Source of the DNA: Bacteroidales bacterium
GTDB taxonomy: Bacteria > Bacteroidota > Bacteroidia > Bacteroidales > JAAYUG01
Direction: 5' to 3'
Assembly: GCA_012517825.1 (NCBI GenBank)
Contig: JAAYUG010000109.1
Location: forward strand, 1 to 33,507
DNA length: 33,507 bases
Of this stretch, positions 4,512 through 32,915 are shown piece after piece (position 1 is the stretch's first letter; every line of letters begins with the position of its first letter). The position numbers and the translations under genes are program-made. The notes below the pieces were generated by a model, which saw only the letters and a program-made list of their open reading frames with translations, was not told where the DNA came from and made no database searches.

Positions 4512-4537
4512 CGTACCAGTTTTTAGCGAAACGTGTA

Positions 4538-14700: not shown

Positions 14701-16692
14701 TGAGTTTTTGCCATAAGGCCTCCAGAAGCTGATACTCTGTTCAAAATCATCGGTATATGGTGGGGTACTGTATGGCAGTGAATAGATAACTGTATCAGTC
14801 TGATCATTGGAATTGTCTTCATCTCCGGGGTAAGAGGTGCGGGCATACACTGAAGTGAATACCTGCGGTACTGACAGGTCAGCTTTCTGAGCAAAGGTAT
14901 AAATGACGCTGTCGTCAGGTGCAATGTTCTGGTTTATGTTTTCGGTTACCCATGATTGTCCTCCGTTAAACGAATAACTGACAGGAATGGGGGCATTGGC
15001 TGTCTGTGCACCGTAATTTTTAACGACAACCGTCACGGGTTCGGCACTGGAAAGACCACATCCCGTTGAAGGAGAAATCCAGCGTGAAACACCAACATCT
15101 TTGGCAACAAAATCGCCAATAACCAGGAAGTCATCAATATTCCATCCGCTGTAACTGCGGCTGTCGGACGTTGGGCCAAGGGTGAAACGCACTTTCAGAT
15201 TGTTTTTGCGGGCCATAGCCAGAGGAAGCGGATAGTTTCTGAAATTCCAGAGGTTTTCCGAAACCGTTCCCCCGTCCATTTCATTTCCATAGAATTTAAC
15301 CCAGTTCACTCCGTCGGTACCTGCCTGTATCTGGGCATCGTCCTGGTAATAAATATTAAACCACCTGTAAAAGCTGATATTGACGTCTTTAAAATATTTC
15401 AGATCCAGGGGTGGCGAAACAGCCTTGTTCATAGCTTCATAACTAACGTTCAGCTCATAGTTGCCTGGATAGGTTCCTATACCATTCAGGTCATTTCCCA
15501 GTACTTTTGTGCCACTGTAGGCAAAGGAAGGATCGGGGGACCCTCCGGTAAAGTTCGGGTCAACAACCACACCCCCCTTGCCCTGCGGGACATCTCTTTC
15601 AAAATCGCCTGTTAGCTGCCATCCTTTATTGGTTTCGAAATCATCAATAAATATTTTCTGATAAATAGGTCTGGCCCCTGCCGGGTCGGCAACAGAGTCA
15701 GGATACGTTTGTCCGTTGACGGTGATGGCATTGGCATCAATCTGCAGGTCGATGTAGTTTCCTTCCTGTGCAGTTTCTTTCAGATCAAAGGTTACCCACA
15801 CCGTATTCATTCCGAACTGCAGATTTTTATTCAGGCCGGTAAACGAAGCCACTCCTCCGCTCAGGCTTTGGGCGGAACCAAGAGGCGCCGATGCATTGAA
15901 GAAGGTGTCGGTTGTAAAATAGAGTTTAACTCCGTTCAACGCAATATCATTATCATCGGTATTTTTAGACCTGATGCTCAGATTTTGCAATGTGCAGGTA
16001 CCATCATTCCCGATGACATTCAATACAATTTTTACCACCGGGTTATTCTGGGTACCGCTGGCAACAAATTGTGTGGTTGCCTGGGAGATATTAACTGTGG
16101 ATATCCGGAGCGGAGAAATCTCTGTTTCGAGGATGGTGACATTATCGATACAGGTTCCGTTTCCGTATTTTGAGATTCCTTCAAAACCGATAAAAACACT
16201 GTCGGTGAGTGTTGCCGGAGGCAGGGGGATTTGCCGGAACGTCCAGTTTTCCACTGCAACAAGGTACTCGGCAAGCTGATGCCAAGCACCATTTTTGCCA
16301 ATCCGGTAATAAACTTTCAACTGGTCACTGTAATTTTGTCCGCCCCAGCTCCAGGTTGCCTGGGCATGCCAGAACCGAAGCTCGGGTTTGGTTCGTCCGG
16401 TGAGGTTTACCGGAGTAGTAACCAGCATGGTTGCTTCATTATTGTAACTCTGCCATCCGAAAACCGCATTTTTCTGTCCTGCCGCGGCAGTATCCGGATA
16501 GGGGTGATCCTGCCATCGTCCGCCCTGCATGTATTCCCATGGAATCAGCTGGACTCCGCTCCGCTTGATTTCCGTCCAGCCATCGGGTTTGGCCCCGCTT
16601 TCAAACGTCTCGAACAGTAAGGTAGCCTGGCCAAAGAGCGATACGCCCAAAATCCAGAGGCTAATTCCTGGCAGGAGTATTTTTTTATTCAT
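11737..16692 (-). CDS. Secreted multidomain protein with type A T9SS C-terminal signal
   Basis: A 1651-residue protein. Residues 1-22 are a signal peptide. Domain order (rough): a MAM/choice-of-anchor-J-like lectin-type domain (25-190); a BNR-associated N-terminal-like beta domain (195-335); a second J-like domain (346-528); a CARDB-like domain (530-625); a third J-like domain (650-824). From about 825, CARDB-like domains alternate with four Ig-like modules, of which three carry the pattern LDAGxGxxxYxWxxGxTxQTY (near 940, 1127, 1309 and 1489). The C-terminus (1576-1651, beginning YPNPASDHLYF) is a type A T9SS sorting domain (TIGR04183 type). This predicts export across the outer membrane, cleavage and surface attachment or release. 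No catalytic domain is recognised; adhesion or carbohydrate binding is the best guess. Confidence 0.9.
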   Translation of the reverse strand: MNKKILLPGISLWILGVSLFGQATLLFETFESGAKPDGWTEIKRSGVQLIPWEYMQGGRWQDHPYPDTAAAGQKNAVFGWQSYNNEATMLVTTPVNLTGRTKPELRFWHAQATWSWGGQNYSDQLKVYYRIGKNGAWHQLAEYLVAVENWTFRQIPLPPATLTDSVFIGFEGISKYGNGTCIDNVTILETEISPLRISTVNISQATTQFVASGTQNNPVVKIVLNVIGNDGTCTLQNLSIRSKNTDDNDIALNGVKLYFTTDTFFNASAPLGSAQSLSGGVASFTGLNKNLQFGMNTVWVTFDLKETAQEGNYIDLQIDANAITVNGQTYPDSVADPAGARPIYQKIFIDDFETNKGWQLTGDFERDVPQGKGGVVVDPNFTGGSPDPSFAYSGTKVLGNDLNGIGTYPGNYELNVSYEAMNKAVSPPLDLKYFKDVNISFYRWFNIYYQDDAQIQAGTDGVNWVKFYGNEMDGGTVSENLWNFRNYPLPLAMARKNNLKVRFTLGPTSDSRSYSGWNIDDFLVIGDFVAKDVGVSRWISPSTGCGLSSAEPVTVVVKNYGAQTANAPIPVSYSFNGGQSWVTENINQNIAPDDSVIYTFAQKADLSVPQVFTSVYARTSYPGDEDNSNDQTDTVIYSLPYSTPPYTDDFEQSISFWRPYGKNSTWQQGMPSGFTLKTTASGLKAWKTFLTSYYLDDDSSYLESPCFNFTGLEKPIVEFKLWHETEKDRDGLRLEYSTDNGSSWHIVPKDPYTYPWYWYNSPMVSALNSPGWDSASNGWVTARQFLPAACANQPLVKFRFHFESDLLTTYEGVGIDLFRIYEAPIDIGVSSFKDLSTACLNDNSNYLKVYVKNYGKGKVKSGEKIYLKAKVNNNPVVSDTITLTSNISSGDSVLLTFTRPVNLSAPGHYTVKAWTNNETDLYFYQPVPNDTATKIIDIYPLPQIGLLDTMRSSRPDTIMLHPHFDPNYDYYWYYNGSTASTLPIPGKGKYIVRVTDTRGNGCTNYDTTVVEKLTINLALDSILHPLNSCELGTQEHVTIRIFNAGNDTLSPGDTIHVGFTFEGGPINTGKKILTSRLYPGSFTTYTFAGNDLDMSQERTYSLKTFLSFKYDSLPANDTLQRNVTVFGYPTVNIGPDTVIYGLTYQLDAGPGYKTYLWNNGDTTQTYIARFMGYHWVRVTDVHDCPAYDTAFIHLVIHDVSPTALIQPANSCLPQGSKQIRIRVQNSGTDTISAGEKIAVAYRIDGGLWTNDTVTLSSPMYPSQYVDHTFTPSESFNTIGAWNIEASTLIPGDINPANDTAIFTVHVWGNPPVNLGKDTTVKALSYLLDAGAGPNRSYLWRDGSTNQTYTVTQSGFYYVKVTDTVSGCFSRDTVVIQLVIDDVGITRWIGDTALCSAQFNGITVTIKNFGTPPYPANKKIPVYYILDGHPVVKDTLTLQSTLAPSGTVNFTIKKWPVKPSGSASIAIFTSMQGDLRPENDTLMQQFTVNPSPVVNLGGINDTIHQTVGPVVLDAGSGFASYYWQDGSTDQTYPAISQGWYWVRVTNEYGCPDTDSVFLHLTTGITNPEDQPVHFAVYPNPASDHLYFKAEFRKITTLELEILDVQGRTIMNSHLSGDRAYHELINLNAVSPGVYILKFFNADFVQATRIIVR

Positions 16693-16925: not shown

Positions 16926-19900
16926 ATGACTGGTTTGGAATACACACAAATGTTTTTTTGTGAACGATTCATCCCGTTAGTGCGCAGGACCGTTGTTTCC
17001 CTGGTAGTTCTGGCCGGAATGTGGTTTCATCCTTCCGGTGTATCGGCCCAGACCGATCGCGAATTCTGGTTTGTTGCGCCTGATATTACAAAGTATCACA
17101 ACGGAGAAACGCCTATCTTTTTTTATTTCACCACCACTGATCTGCCGGCCACTATTAGGGTTGATATGCCGGCCAATCCGTTGTTTCCGGTATTTACTTT
17201 TTCGATGGCGGCTCATTCATCCTATAAGCTGGACGTTTCAGCTTATGTAGCCCAGGTGGAAAACCGTTACGATTACCGCGACGGAATTCCGGGAAAGAGC
17301 AATAAAGCCATTCACATTGTTTCAGACAACTTAATAACAGTATACTACGAATGCTCCATGCAGAACAATCCCGATATTTTTTCTCTTAAGGGGAAAAATG
17401 CCTTAGGGACAGAATTTTTTGTTTCTTTTCAGGAGCGGATGTTCAACATGAGCCAGTCATCCTGGCAGGAACCTGCTTATTCCTCCTTTGAAATTGCTTT
17501 TACCGAAGATAATACCTTTATCACACTCGAAATTCCACCGGGAAAACAGATATACAATGGTTCCAATCCGCCTCTTACAGGGACGGTGGTTCTGGGGCCT
17601 TTTCATCGTGGGGAATCTTACTCAGGCGCACCGGCCATACGGAAGTACGCCCCCTATATTCCGAAAACCGGATACTACTCATGGGACAAGTACTTTGGCC
17701 GGGTAGGTGCCGATCACCTGAATGGAGTGCGCATCAGAACCAACGGAAAAAAGGTTGCCATCACTTTGAAAGATGATTCAATGAAGGCTCTGGTGGGCGG
17801 GTGTTATGACCTGGCCGGCGACCAGACAGTTCCGGTGAATATCGTCGGGAAAACATACATTGCCATGAAGGGCCAGCTTTCTGTGGGGAACCTGAATACC
17901 ACCTATTACAATCCTCCTCCGCCAAATCCGGTCTACCAGGAAGTTGTGTATGCTCTGGCCACACGGAACAATACCCGTATTTTCGTAAACAGCGAAGCGA
18001 CCCCCCGGGCAACCCTCAACGCAGGGCAGTCGTATATGTACCAATTGACTTCGGCCGAACAATACGTTAAAATCTGGACCCCTGATTCCGGTTTTTACTG
18101 CCTCCAGATTTCAGGTTGGGGATGTGAAATGGGCGAGGCTGTTCTTCCTCCGGTTGACCAGTGCACAGGCTCTACACAGGTGGGCTTTACCCGTTCCCAT
18201 TACCCGGGAGAACAATTTTACCTTAACATCATGGTTCGCAAAAAAGCGAAAGGAGGGTTTCTTCTCAACGGGGCCTACAATGCACTGCTCGATTCTACCA
18301 AATTTATTGACGTACCCGGCACTGAGTGGGCTTATGCCCGTATTGGCCCTATTTCGGACAAAGTTATTCCCCTAAATGTTTCCACAATGGTCAGTAATAC
18401 TAAAGATGTTTTTCACCTTGGATGTATTTCGGGTGGACCCTCTTCCGGTACCCGTTACGGTTACTTTTCTGATTATAATCCGCTGAAGGTTGAGGCCTAT
18501 ATTACAGAATCCGGTTCTCAGGATATCCGTTTGTGCTTTGGAAATTCAGCCCAGATTGTTGCCCGGGGTGGGGTGTTTTACCGATGGACTCCCACCAAAT
18601 ATCTGTCCGATTCTACTATTGCGTACCCGGTTGCAAAACCACCCAGGACAATTACCTACAAGGCGTTTGTTTCAGGCGCCTGCGATCAGATTGATTCCAC
18701 GGTGATCTCCATCCAGGTTTCCAATCCGGTGGAAGCCAGGTTCACTATTGATACCACCTTTGGATGCGCTCCCCTCCGGATCAAAATCAGGGATCAGTCG
18801 TACGGAGTGAAAAAATCCTTCTGGAAGATGGGCGACGGATATTCGTTTATAGCCATTTCACCTACCCTGGGAGTGCGGGATAGTGTTTTCCATTATACCT
18901 ATCAGCAGAAGGCCCGGCCGGCTGTAACCCGCAACCTGATGCTGATTGTCGAAAATCCTGATCAATGCCGCGATACCCTCATACGCCCGGTCATTGTTTA
19001 CCCCGAGGTAACCGCTGAAATGACTGCCATGCCCGATACCGGATGCCACCCCCTGGGGGTACTCTATACCAACACCTCCAAAAATGCCGATGCTTACCAA
19101 TGGGAATTCGGTGACGGAGCCTCATCGTCCGATACAATTCCCTTTCATATCTTTAATAATTATACCAACAGGGAACAAACTTATCGTACCCGTCTGGTTG
19201 CCCGTTCGCAATATTATTGCTACGACACAGTCTATAAAAACATCCATGTTTACCCTTATTTGAAAGCCGATTTTACAGTAAGTCCGTACGAAATATGCGC
19301 ACCTTACACCGTCACAATAACCAATAATTCCCAGGGTGGTGCCGGCATCAAAACAGTATTCTGGGATTTCGGCGACGGAACCACCAGCAACGATACGGCA
19401 AAAATCATTGCCCATACCTATACGAATGTTACCGATACCATTCAGACAAGAACACTGCGGCTTGTTATCGGCAGCGGCAACGGATGTTTCGACACACTGA
19501 CCCGCACTATCAAGGTGTATCCTGATGTGTTCTCATCGTTTACAATGGATAGAAATATCGGGTGCCACCCGTTGACCGTCAGTTTTACCCCGCCTTCGAA
19601 CAACATTCCCGTGAGCTGGCAATGGGATTTTGGCGACGGTGGATCCTCCAGCCTGTCCAATCCGTCGCATATTTTTCTTAACAACAGCCCCAGAGGGTAC
19701 GATACAGTTTTTAATGTCAGACTGGTGGTTACTTCGCAGCATTTCTGCACCGATACGACGGTTATACCTGTTACAGTTCATCCCAATATCAGGGCTGAAT
19801 TTACCGTGAGCCAGGGCGAGGGATGCGCTCCCCTTCCGGTGGTTATTACCAATAATTCCTTTGGAAAGTATCCCGGAATAAGCAATTATGACTGGAATTT

Positions 19901-22900
19901 CGGGGATGGCTCAACTACTTCCCAACCCCTGCCGGTTTACCAGCATACTTATCAGAATAATATCACAGCCCCGGTGCAATACAATCTCAGGCTGATTGTG
20001 AACAACCTGGGAGGGTGCAGGGATACCCTTATACGACCGGTGAGAGTTTATCCGAAGATCATAGCCGGTTTTACAGCCGATCATAAGAGCGGTTGCAATC
20101 CTCTTGATGTTCAGTTTACCAACACGTCCAATATTCCGGTAGCAAGCAGTTTTTACTGGACATTTGGCGACGGCGTATCTTCCAGCGCAGTGAATCCTCT
20201 TCACCGCTTTGAGCACTTTTTAAGCAAGGACACCACATTCAGTGTGCAAATGGTGGCCACCAGCGATTATCAATGCCGTGACACACAGAGGATGGCGATA
20301 ACGGTTTATTCCTATATCAATGCCGATTTTGCTCTTGACCGGGCGAGCAAATGCTCTCCTTTTCCGGTTCAGATCACCAATAATTCCTCCGGCGGTATTA
20401 CTTCCTGGTTCTGGGATTTCAGGGATGGGACCACCAGTGCGTTTCCCAATCCCTCCCATACCTATGTTAATAAAACCCTGGCCGATCAGGTGAGAAACCT
20501 CAGGCTGGTTGTGCGCAACAACCATGGCTGTGCCGATACGATGGAACGGCAGGTCACAGTGTTTCCTGAAGTGCGGGCCTCGTTTTCAGCCGACAGGCTT
20601 CAGGGATGCGAGCCGCTCACCGTATCATTCACCAATACATCCAACGAGCCGGTAGCTGATGTTTACAGCTGGACCTTCGGCAATAAAGGTACTTCTTCTC
20701 TCAGGAACCCGGTGTTTGTATTTGATAATCCTGGTCCGGCCGACAGCACATGGCTGGTAAGGCTGCAGGCAACTTCAGTGCACGGTTGCACCGATGATAC
20801 GATTGTCCCCGTTACCGCCTTCGCACATATTGAAGCTGATTTCAAAGTGGCCAATCCTCAGATCTGTTCGCACGAGTCGGTTGCTATTACCAATACTTCC
20901 AGGGGAGGAGTGGTTCAGTACTTCTGGGACTTTAACGGCGACGGCGTAAACGATTCAAACCGGTCTGATGCCAGTTTCACTCAGCCATATACCAACTTTA
21001 CCCCGGATCCGCTGGTTCTGCCTCTGCGTTTGGTTGTAAGAAATGCCCATGCATGTTTTGATACCCTTGTTCGTCAGGTTACGGTCTATCCAAAGATTAC
21101 CGCCCGTTTTACAATGGATTCAGCCGGATGCCATCCCCTGGAGGTACATTTTGACAACCAGACCCTGAACGGAAATGCTCTTCTGGGTTCAGCCGGGAAT
21201 TATGACTGGTATTTCGGTGACGGAAGCACATCCGGCGACCTGCATCCGGTTAAGACCTATTTCAATTATGGTTCAACCGACATTGTGCGCCAGGTGAAAC
21301 TGGTGGCCAGTTCTCCCTATCAGTGCAGGGATTCAGTAACAAAAACCGTACAGATTTACCATCGTCCCAAAGCACTTTTTGCCGTTGACAGAACGATTTC
21401 CTGCCCGCCTTTCGATCTTCAGATTACCAACAATTCTGTTACCAGTAATGCAACCTATTACTGGGACTTTGGTGACGGACAACAACAGAATACCTCATCA
21501 AAGGCGACCTTTGTACACCGTTACACCAACGACGGGATCAATGTGGCGGAATACCTTCTGAACCTCAGGGCTGTGAGCAACCACGGATGTGATGATGAAG
21601 CTTCTCTTACAGTAAGTGTTTATCCTATGGTTACGGCCGCCTTTGATTATGATGCGGCCGGCTGTTCTCCGCTGACAGCCACTTTTACCAACCGTTCCCT
21701 CAATGCAAACTTCTACAAATGGGAATTTGGCGATGGAAAGGTATCGGTTGCCGAGCATCCTTCTGTACGGTTTGTGAATACCGGAGCGTCCGATCTGCCA
21801 ATATCCGCAAAGCTTATTGCCACATCCCTTTACAATTGCTCTGATACACTGGTAAAAAACGTTACCGTTTACGGTCAGCCGGTGGCAGAGTTTGATCCTT
21901 CTCCGGTTTTTCAGGTCTTCAAGCCATTTCCTCAGGTTCAGATTGCCAACTATTCCAATTTGCAATCAGCATGGAATTATGATTGGACCTTTGGCGACGG
22001 AACCATTTCGGCTGACAAATCACCGCAGTTTATAAAAACCTACCAGACGTGGGGAAGGAATGACCGGAACAATGAATTCAATATCATCATGCGGGCTTAC
22101 AATCCGCTTCATCCACAATGTGCTGATACGGTTTCGCACATAATCCGCATCATGCCTCCGGTACCTGAAATTGCAATTACCAACAACAACCCCAACGGGT
22201 GTGAACCGTATGAAGTTGGCTTCAAGACGGTTTACCAGTATGCCTATACCGATTCATTCTACTGGGATTTTGGAGACGGAACCTTTTCAAGGGAGGTTGA
22301 ACCGGTGCACGTTTACCAGCATGCCGGAACATATACGGTGCAGGTTACCGTTACCGGGGATGGAGGGAAAAACAGCGCATACAAAACGGTGATTGTGCAT
22401 CCCACACCGGTGGCTGACTTCGATGCAGCCCCCCGGGTAGCCCTTCTGCCTGATGCGGAAGTTAAAGGCTTCAATAAATCCCAGCTGGCGGTTACCTACC
22501 TGTGGGATTTTGGCGACGGAGGCCTTTCGTCCGAAAAAGATCCGGAGCACCTTTATAAAAAGCTGGGAAAGTACACCGTTAAATTAACCGTATGGTCAGA
22601 ATACGGATGCGTTGATTCCATTACCAAACCTGAAATTATCAGTGTGGAAGGGGAGGGAATGATTGAGTTTCCGAATGCTTTTACTCCCAATATGGCAGGG
22701 CCTTCTGACGGCCATTATGCCAATCTTACCGATCAAAACATCAACGACATTTTCCATCCCAAACATGCAGGTGTCAAAGAGTACCATCTTGAGATCTATA
22801 CACGCTGGGGTGAAAAGATATTTGAGTGCGACGATGTTATGGTGGGATGGGACGGATACTACAAGGGAAAGCTTTGCAAGCAGGACGTATATGTATGGAA

Positions 22901-22976
22901 GGCAAAGGGTAAGTTCTGGAATGGCAGGGAGTTTATGAAAGCCGGCGACGTCACGCTTCTGCATAAAAAAGATTAG
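16926..22976 (+). CDS. Giant PKD-repeat surface protein with type B T9SS C-terminal domain (paralogue 1)
   Basis: 2016 residues. The signal peptide ends near the SAQ before TDREFWFV (about residue 42); the ATG at 16950 would give a more usual n-region. Residues ~44-530 resemble the IgGFc-binding N-terminal domain (PF17517), ending in a Cys-containing stretch (CTGSTQVGF). An Ig-like domain (532-605, with GGVFYRWTPTKYLSD) follows. Fifteen PKD modules (about 606-1908) then carry W-x-FGDG cores and a conserved Cys before the last strand. The C-terminus (about 1915-2016: EFPNAFTPN, IYTRWGEKIFE, GWDGYYKGK, CKQDVYVWKAKG) is the type B sorting domain (TIGR04131), used by SprB-like adhesins. No enzyme domain is seen. 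It is 10 bases from the paralogue downstream and is probably co-transcribed with it. A surface adhesin is the best inference. Confidence 0.92.
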   Translation: MTGLEYTQMFFCERFIPLVRRTVVSLVVLAGMWFHPSGVSAQTDREFWFVAPDITKYHNGETPIFFYFTTTDLPATIRVDMPANPLFPVFTFSMAAHSSYKLDVSAYVAQVENRYDYRDGIPGKSNKAIHIVSDNLITVYYECSMQNNPDIFSLKGKNALGTEFFVSFQERMFNMSQSSWQEPAYSSFEIAFTEDNTFITLEIPPGKQIYNGSNPPLTGTVVLGPFHRGESYSGAPAIRKYAPYIPKTGYYSWDKYFGRVGADHLNGVRIRTNGKKVAITLKDDSMKALVGGCYDLAGDQTVPVNIVGKTYIAMKGQLSVGNLNTTYYNPPPPNPVYQEVVYALATRNNTRIFVNSEATPRATLNAGQSYMYQLTSAEQYVKIWTPDSGFYCLQISGWGCEMGEAVLPPVDQCTGSTQVGFTRSHYPGEQFYLNIMVRKKAKGGFLLNGAYNALLDSTKFIDVPGTEWAYARIGPISDKVIPLNVSTMVSNTKDVFHLGCISGGPSSGTRYGYFSDYNPLKVEAYITESGSQDIRLCFGNSAQIVARGGVFYRWTPTKYLSDSTIAYPVAKPPRTITYKAFVSGACDQIDSTVISIQVSNPVEARFTIDTTFGCAPLRIKIRDQSYGVKKSFWKMGDGYSFIAISPTLGVRDSVFHYTYQQKARPAVTRNLMLIVENPDQCRDTLIRPVIVYPEVTAEMTAMPDTGCHPLGVLYTNTSKNADAYQWEFGDGASSSDTIPFHIFNNYTNREQTYRTRLVARSQYYCYDTVYKNIHVYPYLKADFTVSPYEICAPYTVTITNNSQGGAGIKTVFWDFGDGTTSNDTAKIIAHTYTNVTDTIQTRTLRLVIGSGNGCFDTLTRTIKVYPDVFSSFTMDRNIGCHPLTVSFTPPSNNIPVSWQWDFGDGGSSSLSNPSHIFLNNSPRGYDTVFNVRLVVTSQHFCTDTTVIPVTVHPNIRAEFTVSQGEGCAPLPVVITNNSFGKYPGISNYDWNFGDGSTTSQPLPVYQHTYQNNITAPVQYNLRLIVNNLGGCRDTLIRPVRVYPKIIAGFTADHKSGCNPLDVQFTNTSNIPVASSFYWTFGDGVSSSAVNPLHRFEHFLSKDTTFSVQMVATSDYQCRDTQRMAITVYSYINADFALDRASKCSPFPVQITNNSSGGITSWFWDFRDGTTSAFPNPSHTYVNKTLADQVRNLRLVVRNNHGCADTMERQVTVFPEVRASFSADRLQGCEPLTVSFTNTSNEPVADVYSWTFGNKGTSSLRNPVFVFDNPGPADSTWLVRLQATSVHGCTDDTIVPVTAFAHIEADFKVANPQICSHESVAITNTSRGGVVQYFWDFNGDGVNDSNRSDASFTQPYTNFTPDPLVLPLRLVVRNAHACFDTLVRQVTVYPKITARFTMDSAGCHPLEVHFDNQTLNGNALLGSAGNYDWYFGDGSTSGDLHPVKTYFNYGSTDIVRQVKLVASSPYQCRDSVTKTVQIYHRPKALFAVDRTISCPPFDLQITNNSVTSNATYYWDFGDGQQQNTSSKATFVHRYTNDGINVAEYLLNLRAVSNHGCDDEASLTVSVYPMVTAAFDYDAAGCSPLTATFTNRSLNANFYKWEFGDGKVSVAEHPSVRFVNTGASDLPISAKLIATSLYNCSDTLVKNVTVYGQPVAEFDPSPVFQVFKPFPQVQIANYSNLQSAWNYDWTFGDGTISADKSPQFIKTYQTWGRNDRNNEFNIIMRAYNPLHPQCADTVSHIIRIMPPVPEIAITNNNPNGCEPYEVGFKTVYQYAYTDSFYWDFGDGTFSREVEPVHVYQHAGTYTVQVTVTGDGGKNSAYKTVIVHPTPVADFDAAPRVALLPDAEVKGFNKSQLAVTYLWDFGDGGLSSEKDPEHLYKKLGKYTVKLTVWSEYGCVDSITKPEIISVEGEGMIEFPNAFTPNMAGPSDGHYANLTDQNINDIFHPKHAGVKEYHLEIYTRWGEKIFECDDVMVGWDGYYKGKLCKQDVYVWKAKGKFWNGREFMKAGDVTLLHKKD
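20923..20964 (+). other. Calcium-loop-like insert in PKD module 9 of paralogue 1
   Basis: The core W-x-FGDG is replaced here by WDFNGDGVNDSNRS. DxNGDGxxD is the spacing of EF-hand/dockerin-type calcium-binding loops. The same module of the downstream paralogue has WDFDGNGSVDSNDG at the same place. Confidence 0.55.
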
Positions 22977-22986
22977 ACGGGCAGCT

Positions 22987-25900
22987 ATGTGGATGAAGAG
23001 GTTTATATTGCTTTTGGTTATTTCGTCTTTCATGGGCATGACAAAGGCCCAGGTTGACAGGGAATTCTGGTTTGTGGTTCCTGTTGTTACCCAGGATTAT
23101 CCCTCAGCTGGAGCACCCCAGACTTTTCTGAATATTACCACGCACGACCTTCCGGCACACATCACGATTGACATGCCAAAAGAACCGTTGTTTACGCCAA
23201 TCCAGATTACCATACCTGCTTTCACCACCCAGCTGGTGGATCTGACAGCCCGGCTCGGGATCATTCAGAACACATGGAAACCCGGAGGGAAGAACAATAA
23301 AGGGCTTCATATCGTATCGGATAATTACATCAACGTTACTTTCGAATCGAACAAGGCCAATAATCCTGAAACCTTTACCCTCTTTGGACGGAATGCCCTT
23401 GGGAGTGATTTTTACACTTCTTTTCAGACCGATATGATGAACTGGAACGAAGCTACATGGACTACACAGGGTTATTCGGCTTTTGACATCGTATTTACCG
23501 AAGACAATACGACAATTGACCTTTATATTCCGGCAGGGAAAGGTTTATACAACGGAGGAGGTCCTCCTCTTTCAGGACATGTTATTCTCGGGCCTTTTAT
23601 GCGGGGTGAAACGTTTACCGGCATACCTGCCTGGCTGCACAATCTTGAAGTAACTCCCAAACTGGCCAATGATGTTTACGGGCGTTCCGCTGATGATCAT
23701 CTTGCCGGGCTGAGGATTGTGGCCCAGGGAGGCAAGAAAATTGCCGTTACCGTGAAGGACGATGCGGTAAAGAGCCTGGTTGGCAATTCCCTGAACCCGG
23801 TACAATGCGACCTGCTGGGCGATCAGATTGTTCCGGTAACCATGCTCGGCAAACAATATATAGCATTCCGCGGGCAGTTGCAGACAGGCAGCCTCGCTAC
23901 CAATTATTACAATCCACCGCCTGCCAATCCCGTGGTTCAGGAAAGGCTGTATATTCTGGGAGTAGCTAACAATACTTCCCTTTACATAAACGGTGTTTTT
24001 GTGGCTACCATCAATGCGGGAGAAACGTTTGTGTACCCCATGAGCACCGACATTGCTGTTGTTTCTTCCCCCAATCAGCCGTTTTATTGTTATCAGGTTA
24101 CCGGAGTTGGAAACGAACTCGGGGATGCCCTTCTGCCTCCTACTGACAGGTGCACGGGTTCCTCGCAGGTGGGATTTAGCCGGCCTTCCAATACCGGGGC
24201 ACTTCAGCTGAACATCCTTGTAAGGAAAACCGGCAAGGATTCCTTCCTGCTGAACGGACTGCCTTCCAGCCTTCTGGAAACATCGCAGTTTACCGATATC
24301 CCGGGAACTGACTGGGCCTACCTGCGCAACCTCTCGGTTCCTTTGTCGACCATTCCTTTCGGAACCAGAACCATAATTTCCAACACCCAGGATCTTTTTC
24401 ACATCGGCATAATGAACGGGGTATGGTCGTCTTCGAGTAACCTTGGAGGAGCAAGATATGCCTGGCTTTCGGAATTCAATTCTGTCCGGTTCGAAGGATT
24501 TATTTCCCCCGACGGAACCACATACAAAAGAATCTGTTATGGTGATACAGTACAGCTGGTAGCTCATGGGGGAACAGCATACGACTGGTCTCCGCGAAAA
24601 TATCTTTCTGATGTTTACAGTCCTGTCCCTGTGGCGCGGCCTGACTCATCCGTAATCTATACCGCTACCATTTCAGGAGCCTGTGGCCTCAGCGATACGG
24701 TAAAGTACCGCATTGATGTTGCCCGACCAATAGAAGCCCGTTTTAATATTGATACCTCGCAGGCTTGTGCTCCTTATGCCCTGAATATCAGGGATCAGTC
24801 ATACGGAGTAAAAACTTATTACTGGAACCTGGGCGACGGAACAATATTTTCCTATGGCTCAACCGAAAGCAAGGTGGCTGATACGGTACTCACGCACACC
24901 TATATCAATACCGGACCCGTTGCCCTGCTGCGAAACATACGATTAATTGTAGAGAATACTTACGGATGCCGCGATACACTGATTCGCTCTTTCACAATAA
25001 ATCCTGAAGTGACAGCAGGATTCAATATGGCACCCGGAAACACCGGCTGTACGCCCTTTACGGTAGCCTTTACCAATACTTCTGCCCGCGCCAATTCCTA
25101 TCAATGGAGCTTCGGCGACAATACTTCTTCCTCTGAAGTTTCGCCTGTGCACACTTATGAAAACTACGGGCCTGCCGACAGCCTCAGGAATATTCTTCTC
25201 ATCGCCACTTCTTCTTATTATTGCTCCGATACTGCCTTTGCCCAGGTTACGGTGAGGCCTTTTGTCAAAGCTGATTTTACCGTTGGGCCTGATAAAGGCT
25301 GTTCCCCCCTTCAGGTAAGTATCCAGAATCGGGCCGTCGGAGAAAGCTCCATTGTTAGCTATGAATGGGATTTTGGCGACGGGAATACCAGCAATTCATC
25401 CGCCCCGGTGCTTACCCATACCTATACGAATACAACCGGTCTGGTGCAGATCCGGCAGCTTCGACTGGTGGTTACCAACCAGCAGGGTTGCACCGATACA
25501 TTGATCAGGTCAGTTACCGTATATCCCGAAGTTTCAGCTCAGTTCACACAGGATGTTGTTCAGGGTTGCAATCCTTTGACAGTAAGCTTTACCCGGCCGG
25601 TGAACAATGCTGAGGTAACATGGAACTGGGATTTCGGGCAGGGAAGTAGTTCGAGCAATCCCGATCCCATTGTGGTTTTCCGGAATGCCGGGGGGAATGA
25701 TACAACTTTTACCGTGCGGCTCATTGTTACCTCTGCCAATTTCTGCCGGGATACTTTTAGCAGAAACATTACTGTGTATCCATACATTGATGCCCGGTTT
25801 ACCATTGACCGGGATGAAGGGTGCGTCACCTATCCGGTTGTCATCAGCAATCAGTCGTCTGTTTTGCCCGGGATCAGCAATTTTGAATGGGATTTTGGCG

Positions 25901-28900
25901 ATGGTTCGCCTCTGAGCAATAGCAATTCCGCCACACTCAATCACACTTACTCCAACCCCGGGGCTGTTACACAAACCTACAACCTTCGCCTGGTTGTGCG
26001 CAACCATGCCGGTTGTACCGATACCCTTATACGGCCGGTTAAAGTGTTCCCACGGGTTATTTCAGCATTTAACCCATCGTTGACGGCAGGATGCAATCCG
26101 CTCACCGTAAATTTTTCCAATACTTCCAATATGCCGGTGGCTTCTTCATTCCGCTGGGATTTCGGTACGGGAGCAACTTCATCGGATGTCAATCCTATTT
26201 ATGTTTTTGAAAATCGGTCGTCTTCTGATACTGTTTACCGGGTAAGGCTTATAGCCGTTTCTTCTGATCAATGCACGGATACTTCCCGGGCTGATATTAC
26301 GGTATATTCATTTGTTAAGGCGGCTTTTACGGTGGATACCAATGCATTCTGTTCGCCGTTTGCTGTTGCCATCAGCAATGCTTCATCGGGAGGAATATCA
26401 CAGTTTGAATGGAATTTTGGCGACGGGTCACCGGTATCAAATGTTTTAGCTCCTGCGCATACTTATGTGAACCAAACCCTTGCGCCGCAGGTACATGGGC
26501 TGAGACTGAGGGTGCAGAATCCGCACGGATGTGCCGATTCGCTGGAAAGAACTATTACGGTTTATCCTGAAGTACGGGCGGCATTTGCGGCCGATGTTAC
26601 GGCAGGATGCAATCCGCTTACGGTGCAAATGACCAATCAGTCAAACATACCTGTAGCTCAGGTATATTACTGGGAGTTCGGTGATGGGGCCAGCTCGGAG
26701 CTTCAAAATCCCCAACATACCTTTGTTCATTATGATGCCTCAGATCAGATTTATCCAATCCACCTTCATTCGGTTTCACAGTACGGCTGCTCGGATGATA
26801 CCACACTGAATATTACGGTGTATTCCTATGTTGATGCCGATTTCAAAATGAACGACCAGGATGTCTGTTCAGGATTCCCCCTGCGCTTTGAAAACACCTC
26901 CATGGGAGGCATCCATCAGGTTTCCTGGGATTTTGACGGCAATGGTTCTGTTGATTCAAACGATGGTTCGCCGTTTTTCGATCATCCTTATACCAATCTG
27001 AACGATGATCCTGTAAGTTATAATGCCTTTCTGCGGGTTAATAACATTCACGGATGCGCCGATTCTGTAACTCGTCCCGTAACCGTATATCCCAAAGTGA
27101 CAGCATCTTTTGCTTATGATTCGGCTGGTTGCAGTCCACTGGAAGTGCAGTTTGCCAACACTTCCCTCAGAGGATCCGCACTTCTTGGGAGCAGCGGCTT
27201 TTATGCATGGGATTTTGGCGATCAGACCAGTTCAAGCCTGGAAAATCCGACGAAGATCTTTTACAACTACAATGATTTTGACATTACCCGCACGGTGAAG
27301 CTCATTGCAACATCACAGTATTTCTGCCAGGATTCGGTTGAAAAAACAGTATATGTGTACCATAAACCCCGTGCCATTTTCAATGTTGACCGTACCATCG
27401 ACTGTCCTCCGTTTAATCTCTCCATCCAGAACAATTCCTATACGACCAGTGCTGTCTTTTTCTGGGATTATGGCGATGGTCAGCATGATACGACGTTTGT
27501 CCAGTCCGGATTGACACATACTTATTATAATTCTGCCGATTCCATTCAGAATTACAACCTGCGCCTGAGGGTACAGACCAACCGGAATTGCATTGATTCA
27601 AGTGCCCTGACAATAAGTGTTTATCCTGAGGTTCATGCTGAATTTACTTACGACAGTTCCGGGTGCAGTCCCTTTGTGGCCGGATTTACCAATCAATCGG
27701 TTCATGCAGCGTATTTTCATTGGGATTTTGGTGACGGTTCGGTTTCTTCGCTGGTGAATCCGGTAAAAAGGTTTGTGAACCCCGCAGATGTTGATGCAAC
27801 GTTTGATGTCTGGATGAAGGCTGCTTCCGTTTATAATTGCCGGGATTCGGTGCGGCATCAGGTAACGGTGTTTGCCCAGCCTGAAGCGGAGTTTCTGGCG
27901 ACGCCTCCGCATCAGATATACGAACCGGAGCCGGTGGTTTCGATTTCCAATCTTTCCAATCACCAAACAGTGTGGGATTATCAGTGGGATTTCGGTGACG
28001 GAACTTCCTCCGTCACGCAATCGCCTTCCTTTCAGAAGACCTATACGGCATGGGGTCCCAACAATGATGAGAACCGGTTTTACATTACCCTGATTGCCAC
28101 CAATACCCAGCATCCTCAATGTGCCGACACCATTACCCATCCCATCAGAATACTGCCTCATGTGCCGGTGCCTGAAATCCTGACCCAGGATGCCGCAGGA
28201 TGCGAACCGCTTGAAGTGACCTTCGCAATGCAATGCCTGTATGCATATCCTGATTCGTTTGTCTGGGACTTCGGTGACGGATCGGTCGGTACCGGTCAAC
28301 AGCCTGTTCATACGTATCAGCATGCGGGTATTTATCAGGTACGCCTGAAAGCTGTTGGCGACGGTGGCGTGGCCTATGCGTTTGCTCTGGTAAACGTATA
28401 TCCGCTGCCCGAAGCTGATTTTGACGTAAGCCCTCGCCTGGTCATGCTTCCTGATGATAAAATCACAGTCATCGACAAATCAAAATATGCCGTTTCGTGG
28501 TGGTGGGATTTTGGTGATGGGACAACCTCAGTGGAACAACAGCCCCAGCATCAGTACATCCAGCCGGGAAGTTATGACATACGTCTTATTGTGCTTACAG
28601 AACATAATTGTCCTGACACCTTGCTCAGAGAGCGCTTTGTAACAGTGGAAGAATCCGGTATCCTTGAGTTTCCAAATGCTTTTACACCCAATCTTAACGG
28701 GCCTTCGGGCGGAGATTACAACAACCTTCCCTGGGCCAATATCAACGACGTTTTTCATCCAAAGCACAGAAATGTTGTTGAATTCAGGATGGAAATCTAT
28801 ACCCGCTGGGGTGAGAAAATTTTTGAAACCAATGATATCAATGTGGGATGGGACGGATATTATAAGGGCAGGCTCTGCAAACAAGATGTTTATGTGTGGA

Positions 28901-28974
28901 AAGCATCCGGCAAGTTTATCAATGGGCGGAACTTTCTGCTTTCAGGAGATGTAACCCTGCTCCACAAAAAGTGA
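22987..28974 (+). CDS. Giant PKD-repeat surface protein with type B T9SS C-terminal domain (paralogue 2)
   Basis: 1995 residues, homologous along its whole length to the preceding protein. A clear signal peptide (MWMKRFILLLVISSFMGMTKAQ) precedes VDREFWFV. An IgGFc-binding-like N-terminal domain (about 24-512) and an Ig-like domain (513-585) are followed by fifteen PKD modules (about 585-1890). The type B T9SS domain (about 1894-1995: EFPNAFTPN, IYTRWGEKIFE, GWDGYYKGR) closes the protein. Module count and order match paralogue 1, including the calcium-loop-like ninth module (near 26926-26967). The start lies 10 bases after the stop of paralogue 1. The copies have diverged considerably, so the duplication is not recent. 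The function is probably as a paired surface adhesin or a filament subunit, exported with help from the PorP/SprF protein downstream (inference). Confidence 0.92.
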   Translation: MWMKRFILLLVISSFMGMTKAQVDREFWFVVPVVTQDYPSAGAPQTFLNITTHDLPAHITIDMPKEPLFTPIQITIPAFTTQLVDLTARLGIIQNTWKPGGKNNKGLHIVSDNYINVTFESNKANNPETFTLFGRNALGSDFYTSFQTDMMNWNEATWTTQGYSAFDIVFTEDNTTIDLYIPAGKGLYNGGGPPLSGHVILGPFMRGETFTGIPAWLHNLEVTPKLANDVYGRSADDHLAGLRIVAQGGKKIAVTVKDDAVKSLVGNSLNPVQCDLLGDQIVPVTMLGKQYIAFRGQLQTGSLATNYYNPPPANPVVQERLYILGVANNTSLYINGVFVATINAGETFVYPMSTDIAVVSSPNQPFYCYQVTGVGNELGDALLPPTDRCTGSSQVGFSRPSNTGALQLNILVRKTGKDSFLLNGLPSSLLETSQFTDIPGTDWAYLRNLSVPLSTIPFGTRTIISNTQDLFHIGIMNGVWSSSSNLGGARYAWLSEFNSVRFEGFISPDGTTYKRICYGDTVQLVAHGGTAYDWSPRKYLSDVYSPVPVARPDSSVIYTATISGACGLSDTVKYRIDVARPIEARFNIDTSQACAPYALNIRDQSYGVKTYYWNLGDGTIFSYGSTESKVADTVLTHTYINTGPVALLRNIRLIVENTYGCRDTLIRSFTINPEVTAGFNMAPGNTGCTPFTVAFTNTSARANSYQWSFGDNTSSSEVSPVHTYENYGPADSLRNILLIATSSYYCSDTAFAQVTVRPFVKADFTVGPDKGCSPLQVSIQNRAVGESSIVSYEWDFGDGNTSNSSAPVLTHTYTNTTGLVQIRQLRLVVTNQQGCTDTLIRSVTVYPEVSAQFTQDVVQGCNPLTVSFTRPVNNAEVTWNWDFGQGSSSSNPDPIVVFRNAGGNDTTFTVRLIVTSANFCRDTFSRNITVYPYIDARFTIDRDEGCVTYPVVISNQSSVLPGISNFEWDFGDGSPLSNSNSATLNHTYSNPGAVTQTYNLRLVVRNHAGCTDTLIRPVKVFPRVISAFNPSLTAGCNPLTVNFSNTSNMPVASSFRWDFGTGATSSDVNPIYVFENRSSSDTVYRVRLIAVSSDQCTDTSRADITVYSFVKAAFTVDTNAFCSPFAVAISNASSGGISQFEWNFGDGSPVSNVLAPAHTYVNQTLAPQVHGLRLRVQNPHGCADSLERTITVYPEVRAAFAADVTAGCNPLTVQMTNQSNIPVAQVYYWEFGDGASSELQNPQHTFVHYDASDQIYPIHLHSVSQYGCSDDTTLNITVYSYVDADFKMNDQDVCSGFPLRFENTSMGGIHQVSWDFDGNGSVDSNDGSPFFDHPYTNLNDDPVSYNAFLRVNNIHGCADSVTRPVTVYPKVTASFAYDSAGCSPLEVQFANTSLRGSALLGSSGFYAWDFGDQTSSSLENPTKIFYNYNDFDITRTVKLIATSQYFCQDSVEKTVYVYHKPRAIFNVDRTIDCPPFNLSIQNNSYTTSAVFFWDYGDGQHDTTFVQSGLTHTYYNSADSIQNYNLRLRVQTNRNCIDSSALTISVYPEVHAEFTYDSSGCSPFVAGFTNQSVHAAYFHWDFGDGSVSSLVNPVKRFVNPADVDATFDVWMKAASVYNCRDSVRHQVTVFAQPEAEFLATPPHQIYEPEPVVSISNLSNHQTVWDYQWDFGDGTSSVTQSPSFQKTYTAWGPNNDENRFYITLIATNTQHPQCADTITHPIRILPHVPVPEILTQDAAGCEPLEVTFAMQCLYAYPDSFVWDFGDGSVGTGQQPVHTYQHAGIYQVRLKAVGDGGVAYAFALVNVYPLPEADFDVSPRLVMLPDDKITVIDKSKYAVSWWWDFGDGTTSVEQQPQHQYIQPGSYDIRLIVLTEHNCPDTLLRERFVTVEESGILEFPNAFTPNLNGPSGGDYNNLPWANINDVFHPKHRNVVEFRMEIYTRWGEKIFETNDINVGWDGYYKGRLCKQDVYVWKASGKFINGRNFLLSGDVTLLHKK

Positions 28975-29055: not shown

Positions 29056-29091
29056 ACCTGTTCTTTGATTCTCTGCTGACGGAGATTGACA

Positions 29092-30093
29092 ATGAACATA
29101 ATGAAAGCAGGAACAAAAATAAAAAAGCTGGTTTTTCTCTGGACTACGGGTGTGTTGCTCACGGCCAGCCTGATGGCTCAGGACCCGCAGTTTACCCAGT
29201 TTTTTGCCAACAAGCTGTATCTGGCGCCATCGTTTGCAGGAGCTACAAAGCAGCAGCGTATTGTCAGCATGTACCGGAACCAGTGGGCAGGTATTCCCGG
29301 AGGATTCAATACCATGTCTTTCTCGTATGAGTATTTCTTCCCGAATTTCAACAGCGGGTTGGGTGTTCTTGTATTGCGCGATATGGCAGGAAGCGGAAGA
29401 CTGGGTATGACCAATGTAGGGGTGCTTTATTCATATGATTTTCAGATATTTGAGGAATGGCATGTGCGCCCCGGCCTGCATTTTCTTTATTCCATGTACG
29501 GTATCGATTTCTACCGCCTGCGTTTTTATGACCAGCTGGTTACAGGCAACGGTACGACATTTGAGGACCCTCCTGCTCAGGAAAATATCGGAGCCTTTGA
29601 TGCTTCAACTTCTGTGCTGATTTATTCAAAATCTGTGTGGGCAGGAGCTGCTGTGGATCATCTCTTCCGGCCCGACCAGTCGTTTTATGCCAATAAAGCA
29701 ATCATCCCGATGAAGTTTTCCTTTTTCGGAGGATTCCAGATCATACGGCAGGGGAAGCTTCTGAAACCCATTGACGAAACTGTTTCACTGGCCTATCTGT
29801 TCCGGCTCCAGCAAAACAAAAAACAGCTCGATATAGGCCTTTACTGGAATAAGGTGCCGCTGGTTCTTGGTTTCTGGTACCGGGGTATACCCCCTTTCAA
29901 TTCCGAACGTGGCGATGCACTGGCCATGCTGGTTGGCTTTAAAATGAAGGGCTTCAGTATTGGATACAGCTACGATTTTACCATATCAAACCTGGTTTCC
30001 TCAACACACGGAGCCCATGAAATTTCCCTCAGTTTGGATTTTCAGACCAACCGGAAGAAAAAAATTCACGCTATTCCATGTCCTGAGTTCTAA
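29092..30093 (+). CDS. PorP/SprF-family type IX secretion membrane protein
   Basis: 333 residues from the ATG at 29092, which has GGAG (29081-29084) 7 bases upstream; ATG at 29101 is an alternative. The signal peptide (KKLVFLWTTGVLLTASLMAQ) is followed directly by DPQFTQFFANKLYLAPSFAGA and YRNQWAGIPGGFNTMSFSYE, the hallmark start of PorP/SprF proteins (TIGR03519 type). The rest alternates short amphipathic strands typical of an outer-membrane beta-barrel. In Flavobacterium, SprF is needed to bring SprB, a type B T9SS substrate, to the surface, and such genes typically follow the gene for their substrate. Here it follows two giant type B proteins and so is their likely dedicated partner. Confidence 0.93.
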   Translation: MNIMKAGTKIKKLVFLWTTGVLLTASLMAQDPQFTQFFANKLYLAPSFAGATKQQRIVSMYRNQWAGIPGGFNTMSFSYEYFFPNFNSGLGVLVLRDMAGSGRLGMTNVGVLYSYDFQIFEEWHVRPGLHFLYSMYGIDFYRLRFYDQLVTGNGTTFEDPPAQENIGAFDASTSVLIYSKSVWAGAAVDHLFRPDQSFYANKAIIPMKFSFFGGFQIIRQGKLLKPIDETVSLAYLFRLQQNKKQLDIGLYWNKVPLVLGFWYRGIPPFNSERGDALAMLVGFKMKGFSIGYSYDFTISNLVSSTHGAHEISLSLDFQTNRKKKIHAIPCPEF

Positions 30094-30140: not shown

Positions 30141-30209
30141 AAAATTTTTATTGTTAACCTACGTCAGGGGAATGTTTTGAATTCTCCAGGCGGAAAAAAT
30201 AAAAACCCT

Positions 30210-30824
30210 ATGAAAAAGTGGCCGGTTATTATTAATGGAATCCTTGTTGTTGCCGTTATTGTATTGTACATATTGTTCTTTGCCTCAGGGAAAAAGCACG
30301 GTAATGGAATCATGGCACAGGGTTATGATTCGCTTTCAGGCAATGCTTCTGTAAGAATAGCCTACATCAATACCGACACCTTGCTGAACAATTATGACCG
30401 TTTTTTTGAGCTGAGAAAACAGATTACCGACAAGCAGCAGCGTTACGAAAACGAACTGAGCACCAAGCAGGTTCAACTGCAGAAAAAAATCAGCGATTAC
30501 CAGTCAAAAGTGCAGAAAGGGTTGTTGCTCAGGTCTGAAATGCAGGAAATTGAGCAGCAGCTAAATGCCGAAGGACAAAATTTCCAGCAGCTTCAGATGG
30601 AATATAATCAGCAGCTCAACGAAGAAATGCAGGTGATGAACCGCAAGCTGTATGAAGATATTGTTGAGTTTCTGAAAGAGTACAACAAGGATCACCAGTA
30701 TGCCTACATACTTTCTGACTCCTATGGAGGCGGGCTTCTTTATGCCGATAAGAGCCTGGACATTACATGGGATGTTATCAGGAAGATGAACGAGAAATAC
30801 AAAGCTGAAAAGGCCAAAAATTAG
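30210..30824 (+). CDS. OmpH/Skp-like periplasmic chaperone-family protein, membrane-anchored
   Basis: 204 residues from the ATG at 30210. A TTG start at 30177 would add 11 polar residues before the membrane segment and is unlikely. An N-terminal hydrophobic helix (about 9-25) precedes the family-typical strand IAYINTDTLLNNYDRFF. A long Gln/Lys/Glu-rich coiled coil follows (QQRYENELSTKQVQLQKKI through EEMQVMNRKLYEDI), then a short C-terminal domain (YAYILSDSYGGGLLYADKSLDIT). This is the OmpH/Skp architecture (PF03938); Skp chaperones unfolded outer-membrane proteins. The N-terminal segment lacks an obvious cleavage site, so it may stay anchored. It is 10 bases upstream of the glycosyltransferase gene. 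Confidence 0.88.
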   Translation: MKKWPVIINGILVVAVIVLYILFFASGKKHGNGIMAQGYDSLSGNASVRIAYINTDTLLNNYDRFFELRKQITDKQQRYENELSTKQVQLQKKISDYQSKVQKGLLLRSEMQEIEQQLNAEGQNFQQLQMEYNQQLNEEMQVMNRKLYEDIVEFLKEYNKDHQYAYILSDSYGGGLLYADKSLDITWDVIRKMNEKYKAEKAKN

Positions 30825-30834
30825 ATTTCGGAAT

Positions 30835-32118
30835 ATGGATTTTGCCGATGCTTATTTTCAGAAGCATCGCATATCGGATTCGCTGTCAGTACCTCCGTCA
30901 AAAGAGCTTCGTTGTGTTGTTGTTCTTCCCTCCTACAGGGAAGAACATTTGTTTAAGGCGGTAGGGTCTCTTCTCATGGCCCATTGCAGCCCTGGCGAAG
31001 TTGAAATTATTGTCGTACTTAATTCCTCCGAGAGGGATCCTGCAGAAATCAGGGAGCAGACCCTTCAAACGAAGGATCAGTTGTTGCAGTTTCTTCAGAA
31101 TACCAACACATCCGGTATTCCCGTGCATGTTGTCTGCTATCCTGATATGCCGTTCAGGGAAGCAGGTGTGGGACTGGCCAGAAAAATCGGGATGGACATA
31201 GCAGCAGCCCGGCTGAGGTCGGTCAACCGTCCCGAAGGAATCATTGGTTCCTTTGATGCAGATGCCTGGTGTGAAACCAATTTTTTCCGGGAGCTTCTTT
31301 CCTTCTTCGACCAGCATCCTGATGCACCCGGGGCATCTGTTTATTTTGAACATGACCTCATCGGTGAAGGAATCAGACAGGAAATAACGGAATCTATCAT
31401 CCGGTATGAATTGCACCTGCGGTATTTTGTAAGGGCATTGCGCTATGCAGGTCATCCCCATGCGTTTCAGACCCTTGGCTCATCGTTTGCGGTAAGAGCC
31501 GGTACATATACAGCGCAGGGCGGTATGAACAAACGAAAGGCAGGAGAAGACTTTTACTTTCTCCACAAAGTTATCCCTCTGGGAAACTACGGGGAAATCA
31601 ATGGTACATGCATTCATCTTTCCCCCAGGCCGAGCGACAGGGTTCCCTTCGGCACCGGTGCGGCTGTTCGCAAAATGCTTCTCACCGGCGAACTTCGGTG
31701 GATGACCTATCATTTCGATGCCTTCAGAGACCTGAGTGCTTTGTTCGGCAGGGTTCCCCTTTTGTATAGTTCTTCCAGAGAAACAATCAGAGAAATTTAC
31801 CATAATCTGCCGCTTCCTCTTACGGAATTTCTTACCCTGGCCGAGTTTTCTGAAATTATGGATGAATGCCGAACGAATTCTGCAACCGAAGCATCATTTT
31901 CCAAACGATTCTTCAGGTGGTTCAATGTGTTCCGTGTTATTAAATTCCTGAACGCCGCCCATGAAACGTTCTATCAGAAAAAAGAAATATCAGAAGCGGT
32001 TCCGGATTTGATGAAATATGACGGAAGCCGCCCGTCGGGGCAACCACTGACAGCAGGCGAACTGCTTTTTCTTTTCAGGACAGCCGACAGGAGTGGTTAC
32101 ACGAAGGTTATTCCTTAA
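30835..32118 (+). CDS. Family 2 glycosyltransferase
   Basis: 427 residues, with no signal peptide or clear membrane helix. The N-terminal GT-A nucleotide-sugar fold begins VVVLPSYREEHLF (28-40). The metal-binding motif is DAD (141-143, in GSFDADAWC). The stretch GVGLARKIGMDIA (111-123) is typical of GT2 enzymes, and the acidic catalytic motif is GED (237-239, in KAGEDFYFLHK). The C-terminal ~170 residues are not recognised. Donor and acceptor cannot be predicted. It is co-transcribed with the OmpH-like gene (10-base gap) and overlaps the convergent DivIC-like gene by 11 bases. Confidence 0.87.
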   Translation: MDFADAYFQKHRISDSLSVPPSKELRCVVVLPSYREEHLFKAVGSLLMAHCSPGEVEIIVVLNSSERDPAEIREQTLQTKDQLLQFLQNTNTSGIPVHVVCYPDMPFREAGVGLARKIGMDIAAARLRSVNRPEGIIGSFDADAWCETNFFRELLSFFDQHPDAPGASVYFEHDLIGEGIRQEITESIIRYELHLRYFVRALRYAGHPHAFQTLGSSFAVRAGTYTAQGGMNKRKAGEDFYFLHKVIPLGNYGEINGTCIHLSPRPSDRVPFGTGAAVRKMLLTGELRWMTYHFDAFRDLSALFGRVPLLYSSSRETIREIYHNLPLPLTEFLTLAEFSEIMDECRTNSATEASFSKRFFRWFNVFRVIKFLNAAHETFYQKKEISEAVPDLMKYDGSRPSGQPLTAGELLFLFRTADRSGYTKVIP

Positions 32119-32425: not shown

Positions 32426-32575
32426 GCACGAATTATTTCTTATATGGAATGAGTTTTCAACGGGTTGTTGAAGAAATTACCTGTGAGGCAAAATTATTAC
32501 GGTTGGAAAGTTCTTTTATCAAATTATCAGTTGGTTACAACTGAATTGTCACTATCATTCTTCAGTGGATATTAA

Positions 32576-32915
32576 GCCCGGATTGCGCATCAGGAGGGAA
32601 GCGAACTGATGCGCAGTGCGTTGGCCTTGCGCGCAAGCATCCGGGCAAATCCCGCTGGAACGAAGTGGAAGCGGCCGGTTAAGCCCGGATTGCGCATCAG
32701 GAGGGAAGCGAACTGATGCGCAGTGCGTTGGTCTTGCGCGCAAGCATCCGGGCAAATCCCGCTGGAACGGAGTGGAAGCGGCCCGCAGGGAACATTGCGA
32801 ATGTTTTCATGAGCAATGTGGGTTAGGCCCGGATTGCGCATCAGGAGGGAAGCGAACTGATACGCAGTGTGTTTTCCTTGCGCGCAAGCATCCGGGCAAA
32901 TCCCGATGGAACCAA
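32576..32915. repeat. Three copies of the 107-bp repeat, inverted relative to the left array
   Basis: GCCCGG starts the copies at 32576, 32683 and 32827. The first spacing is exactly 107; the second is 144 owing to a 37-base insertion that includes a hairpin, ACATTGC (32792-32798) with GCAATGT (32813-32819). The sequence is the reverse complement of the array at 1-422, with the same stems (inner arms ATTGCGCATCAG and CTGATGCGCAGT, loop GAGGGAAGCGAA). The region 32414-32575 before it holds nothing beyond the DivIC promoter. Confidence 0.92.

Follow-up and report, generated by a model that had tools for sequence, protein, structure and literature searches.

We describe two adjacent giant genes, A and B, of an uncultured Bacteroidota bacterium (order Bacteroidales; assembly GCA_012517825.1, 3.3 Mb in 207 contigs), together with their homologues, of which many of those that could be named come from Bacteroidales. 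The window, that is, the whole stretch of DNA that was analysed, comprises the 33,507 nucleotides of contig JAAYUG010000109.1 (G000:C109 in our numbering). Gene A (16926..22976, forward strand), encoding a putative surface protein of 2016 aa, and its tandem paralogue gene B (22987..28974, forward strand), encoding 1995 aa, lie head to tail with 10 bp between them and share one architecture: a signal peptide-like start, an IgGFc-like N-terminal region, 15 PKD modules, and a C-terminal domain (CTD) resembling the type B sorting signals of the type IX secretion system (T9SS). The N-terminal regions (17046..18719 in A and 23047..24720 in B; 47% identity) matched PF17517, IgGFc_binding, with 78.9 and 81.3 bits, above the gathering cut-off of 25.6, and the PKD_4 scores of 299 bits for A and 352 bits for B were likewise above the Pfam cut-off. 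The modules are of two alternating types, O at odd and E at even positions, as detailed below. In A, they form six O-E pairs (modules 1-2, 18726..19256; 3-4, 19257..19784; 5-6, 19785..20312; 7-8, 20313..20825; 9-10, 20826..21362; 11-12, 21363..21875) followed by a three-module C-terminal cap (modules 13-15, 21876..22646), and the sixth pair and the cap hold positions that are conserved across the family. The corresponding pairs of B are located at 24727..25260, 25261..25782, 25783..26310, 26311..26826, 26827..27363, and 27364..27876, and its cap is located at 27877..28647. The CTDs (22647..22973 in A and 28648..28971 in B) are the most conserved part between the two proteins, with 72% identity.

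A first, sequence-only reading of this DNA had noticed two diverged adjacent paralogues with fifteen modules apiece that are paired by position, and this was borne out by our analysis. A and B align over their full length with 49% identity and 2% gaps, and cutting them into modules gave 15 in each, of 81-94 aa, in one-to-one register. The same reading had counted fifteen W-x-FGDG cores per protein, which is correct for the modules but not for the literal core, of which A has only 11 copies and B only 8; the remaining modules carry degenerate cores such as WKMGDG, WDFRDG, WTFGNKG, and WDFNGDG. Counting the literal core, which yields 11 and 8, was rejected as a module count. When all modules were compared with each other, the counterpart in the other protein was the best match for 29 of 30 modules, the sole exception being B08, whose best match was A06. 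In the module tree, 10 of the 15 counterpart pairs were sisters, with modules 2, 3, 5, 7, and 10 unresolved, and the A and B labels were fully interleaved (15 changes, the maximum). Modules thus pair with their counterparts as had been predicted, and neither of the two outcomes named beforehand as refuting, clustering by protein or unequal module numbers, was observed; concerted evolution between A and B is therefore not indicated. Each module of A thus shares an ancestor with its counterpart in B, and both arrays go back to a single array of 15 modules. In another genome of the same genus (G001), both copies are present in the same order, each with 15 modules and 90% identity to its counterpart. 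In a genome of another genus of the same family (G002), in which the genes are fragmented, the C-terminal piece of the upstream gene is nearer to A (63 versus 55%) and the downstream gene is nearer to B (52 versus 48%). Therefore, as judged from these sequence relationships, A and B are the products of an old tandem duplication that took place before the two genera diverged.

The modules have a familiar fold. Six modules of B were modelled as PKD beads (pLDDT 91, pTM 0.50), and this model matched known PKD structures; a single module superimposed on the archaeal S-layer protein 1l0q with a Z score of 13.1 and 1.2 A over 80 residues. PKD proteins such as 1l0q and the collagenase PKD domains thus have the same module fold as A and B, but the solved chains contain one or two PKD domains rather than long alternating arrays. 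Among multi-module proteins, GhpA of Aureispira was the most similar to B in its PKD array, both by profile (E value of 2e-97) and by fold (top match with Foldseek and VIA-align). The N-terminal region of B was modelled as an all-beta structure (pLDDT 88) whose final part is Ig-like; when compared with the PDB, it gave no whole-domain match but matched in the last Ig-like part only, and the missing match does not show that the fold is new. This extra Ig-like domain (residues 481-562 of the N-terminal model) directly precedes module 1; it gave no match to the PKD module profile and is excluded from the module count.

The module identity matrix of A and B is a checkerboard in which odd modules resemble odd ones and even modules resemble even ones. 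We searched 393 genomes of the order, 95 of which contained homologues, and added a contig profile scan, for which a narrower N-terminal alignment was used, as well as family searches. The resulting sample consisted of 100 distinct full-length arrays, of which 95 were free of gaps and 5 were flagged for gaps. Labelling the modules along 50 arrays gave the formula (OE)n plus a three-module cap, and A and B correspond to (OE)6 + 3 = 15. Over the 95 gap-free arrays, 1012 of 1328 modules, against an expected 613, had their best partner in the same array an even number of modules away, and the mean module score was higher at distances 2, 4, and 6 than at distances 1, 3, and 5 (for example, 111 at distance 2 versus 80 at distance 1). 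The script used for this analysis contained a filter for odd counts as well; as all gap-free arrays were odd from the outset, this filter removed none of them.

All 95 gap-free arrays contain an odd number of modules: 11 (1 array), 13 (4), 15 (45), 17 (12), 19 (19), 21 (8), 23 (5), or 27 (1). When every countable homologous array was included, there were 98, with counts from 11 to 27 that were always odd. Several of these counts were settled by inspection. For instance, L144 had 24 modules by profile and 25 on reading; L114 had 18 by profile but a true count of 17, one weak match lying inside the N-terminal domain; and the count of 21 for L153 was confirmed by eye, one split and one missed module having cancelled each other. 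L097 and L102, which gave 16 and 20 modules with the general profile, gave 27 with a dedicated one. Together with L144, they are the three of the five gap-flagged arrays that could be counted, the other two being L086 and L106. L097 and L102 belong to a subgroup of diverged proteins, about 2910-2930 aa long, in which every countable copy has 27 modules; with the dedicated profile, this number was obtained for L097 and L105 (tandem paralogues, both from G054), L096 (G385), and L102 (G253). As a control, PKD arrays without this N-terminus were counted in the same manner and included even runs (6, 8, 8, 8, and 10), and therefore the counting method does not force odd numbers. We found no report of an always-odd count with a two-module unit in the literature searched on PKD pair rules, super-repeats, and this architecture.

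Changes in array length can be followed between close relatives, which differ by exactly two modules. The indels span 173-186 aa in several clades (L074/L076, 173 aa; L066/L070, 181 aa; L094/L118, 176 aa; L206/L208, 177 aa; L083/L077, 174 aa; L041/L114, 180 aa), and those that could be located are interior to the array rather than at its ends. Two chimeric relatives, L200:1420-6717 and L202:8455-13329 (from G412 and G413), have the same N-terminus followed by O-E pairs but lack the cap and end in a T9SS tail of type A; their 10 and 8 modules differ by a single, precise pair deletion of 186 aa, with its junction at the equivalent point of modules 8 and 10, both of the E type. A quick tree of 98 arrays required at least 30 changes of module count, and since all counts are odd, every inferred change is of even size; no single-module change was found among them. 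It could be argued that such a parity is purely mutational, because recombination between like modules (O with O, or E with E) would produce steps of two without any selection. The higher score of modules at distance 2 than at distance 1 and the deletion with its junction inside two E modules are both consistent with this explanation. However, at the level of DNA the difference is small: identity between modules is 47% at distance 2 and 45% at distance 1, the longest in-register exact match has a mean of 8.1 nt versus 7.5 nt, and matches of at least 12 nt occur in 8.3% versus 5.2% of pairs. If recombination were the sole cause, this near-equal similarity would predict that about 40% of events involve a single module, and none was seen in at least 30 changes. 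Furthermore, arrays in which O and E are poorly distinguished are also odd. We therefore regard a purely mutational origin of the parity as possible but rather unlikely. As the opportunity for single-module changes is nearly as large, yet none was seen, it is likely that selection for a two-module unit lies behind the parity.

How A and B reach and hold the cell surface is suggested by their C-termini and by their neighbourhood. A gene for an outer-membrane protein of the PorP/SprF family (29086..30093, forward strand; PF11751, 193 bits), a probable anchor of A and/or B, follows gene B, and the genome encodes the translocon protein SprA and seven PorP/SprF proteins, so that both an adjacent PorP/SprF gene and a T9SS translocon are present. 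A PorP/SprF gene is located within 3 kb downstream in 69 of the 91 homologues with enough flanking sequence, and the gene neighbourhood of A and B is preserved in other families. PorP-like barrels have been reported as the binding partners of type B cargo (PMC9143113). The arrangement is like that of the T9SS type B cargo proteins and their PorP/SprF partners SprB-SprF and PG1035-PorP, which likewise combine a giant or surface-exposed protein having a type B-like CTD with an adjacent PorP/SprF gene and SprA in the genome. A and B differ from these systems in having O-E pairs of PKD modules instead of SprB repeats, none of which was listed in the Pfam scan of A and B, and in having a CTD that scores just below the curated cut-offs. 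The best reading of these data is that A and B are exported by the T9SS and anchored by PorP/SprF as surface rods made of O-E pairs; the secretion route, the anchoring, the rod shape, and an adhesive role are all predicted.

Taken together, A and B are probably old tandem duplicates of a Bacteroidales surface protein that forms a rod with two modules as its building unit. According to this model, the T9SS would export A and B, the neighbouring PorP/SprF protein would hold them, and the PKD array would keep the IgGFc-like head away from the cell. The unit of the rod would be the O-E pair, with O-E and E-O junctions, or the face that is presented, being different. If one module were added or removed, two modules of one type would become neighbours and the cap would be shifted in phase relative to the head, whereas a change by two would leave this phase unaffected, and changes in count would thus be tolerated only as whole pairs. 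Every count would be odd because changes are tolerated only in pairs, and A and B would correspond module for module, since the array already had 15 modules when the gene was duplicated and neither copy has acquired or dropped a pair since then. Strict alternation of two domain types with the pair as the repeat unit is also found in the surface rods SasG/Aap of staphylococci, and Aap has been reported to form twisted cables (PMC4261907). In contrast to A and B, these proteins are made of unrelated folds (G5 and E domains) with nearly identical repeats and are anchored to a Gram-positive wall, and the parallel is a functional one only; the Pfam scan of A and B showed PKD domains and no G5 domains. 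The components of A and B are of known kinds; what deserves to be followed up is the two-module unit with its always-odd count. It is commonly assumed that repeat proteins alter their length freely by single modules, whereas about 100 homologues from many Bacteroidales families range here from 11 to 27 modules and are never even. Such a rule ties sequence evolution to rod architecture in a manner that can be counted, provides a rare handle on the construction of T9SS surface rods, and makes the sharp prediction that one-module changes fail and two-module changes pass.

Several observations weigh against this interpretation. The CTDs fall just below the curated cut-offs, with 24.4 (A) and 25.4 (B) bits against CHU_C (cut-off of 27) and 25.6 (A) and 22.3 (B) bits against TIGR04131 (cut-off of 35), at E values of 1e-5 to 1e-4. 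The alternation of O and E is weak by sequence in about one third of the arrays, although the counts there are odd nonetheless. The odd-count tally covers the countable arrays, and a few divergent homologues of about 2920 aa (L086, L106, and L116), which could not be counted, lie outside it. The counts share ancestry, and the figure of at least 30 changes was read from a quickly built tree with weak forks. Finally, the present-day DNA similarity may be unlike that at the time of each event, and thus the comparison weakens a mutational bias and favours selection without proving it.

The two-module unit could have a further meaning. The O-E pair might be an obligate two-faced unit with which rods pack in register through one face, as homo- or hetero-oligomeric cables in which A and B would be two strands. 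We consider this unlikely as it stands; if it were true, one added module would turn all downstream modules to the wrong face, and the odd number would be a physical rule for a whole family of Bacteroidales surface cables. The sequence-only reading had suggested that the two proteins perhaps assemble in register; that they do so as strands of a common surface cable, and that both have 15 modules for this reason, appears quite improbable. In its favour, GhpA, the closest solved multi-module relative, has been reported as a T9SS-exported chain forming a heptameric filament that is spanned by each chain (PMC13319060; PMC11205867), and therefore in-register packing of rods has a precedent, though for identical chains. 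GhpA (9flp and related entries) shares with A and B a string of beta-sandwich beads, and the similarity is to the beads only: it is a homo-heptamer of 5898-aa chains with hooks, whereas A and B are two different chains of about 2000 aa, and its modules in the matched stretch lack the WDFGDG core. GhpA was not accepted as a relative with alternating O and E modules. A second tandem pair, in G321, also has 15 modules in both copies and the same gene setting, within the clade of another family, which would agree with co-assembly. On the other hand, most homologous loci carry a single copy of the gene, and thus a second chain is not required, and equal counts are expected from common ancestry. At an N-terminal domain identity of 40-50%, the range into which A and B fall, 29% of all pairs of homologues agree in their number of modules, and 15 modules are the most frequent number (45 of 100 arrays). 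That A and B have equally many modules, which had been thought surprising, is therefore a matter of ordinary ancestry. Same-genome paralogues with equal counts occur in G000, G001, G321, G026, G234, G311, G214, G274, and G429, while G412 and G413 each have a 19-module copy plus the chimeric copy of 10 or 8 modules with a type A tail. Co-variation of counts between such paralogues was dropped as support for co-assembly, since most of the equal cases reflect shared ancestry. In-register assembly of A and B is, by analogy with GhpA, mechanistically plausible, and no more.

The sequence-only reading had also taken the strict retention of modules to mean that each position has its own role, which is not what the wider family shows. 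When the modules of A and B were compared with those of 41 other 15-module arrays, modules 11-15 were most similar to the module of the same number in 59-100% of cases and modules 1-10 in only 12-44%, while the odd/even type was preserved in 85-100% at every position. Arrays of 17-21 modules mostly have the same five C-terminal modules in place when counted from the C-terminus. Loose positions in modules 1-10, a type that is kept, and losses of interior pairs point to a constraint on the phase of the pairs and on the C-terminal five modules, not on 15 positions. That each of the 15 positions has a binding role of its own is thus very improbable: the 29 of 30 counterpart matches and the positional conservation of modules 11-15 agree with it, but modules 1-10 are conserved across families by odd/even type only and close relatives differ by gains and losses of interior pairs, which refutes it for these ten modules at the family level, although it could hold within the family of A and B itself.

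Other genes of the locus are also shared with homologous loci. Upstream of gene A, a divergently oriented gene (11737..16692, reverse strand) encodes a protein of 1651 aa that ends in a T9SS signal of type A (Por_Secre_tail, 40.9 bits). Relatives of it occupy the same divergent position at 53 of 73 homologues with enough flanking sequence, and it is thus a positionally conserved partner across many Bacteroidales families. Downstream of the PorP/SprF gene are genes for an OmpH/Skp-like periplasmic protein (30177..30824, forward strand) and a glycosyltransferase family 2-like protein (30835..32118, forward strand), both of which are neighbours at many homologous loci. The window gave no Rfam match. 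Tandem repeats of a 107-bp unit are present at both ends of the contig (1-422, reverse strand, and 32572-32912, forward strand). The unit has 57 matches over many contigs of the genome, often close to contig ends, which points to a dispersed repeat family that may have caused assembly breaks. Further upstream, a set of ABC transporter genes on the reverse strand (1305-5467), encoding a PF09822 protein, an ABC2 membrane protein, and a DUF4340 protein, resembles the gliding-associated GldF/GldG transporter, and two genes for Fe/Mn superoxide dismutases (5855-6430 and 8706-9422) are located less than 4 kb apart.

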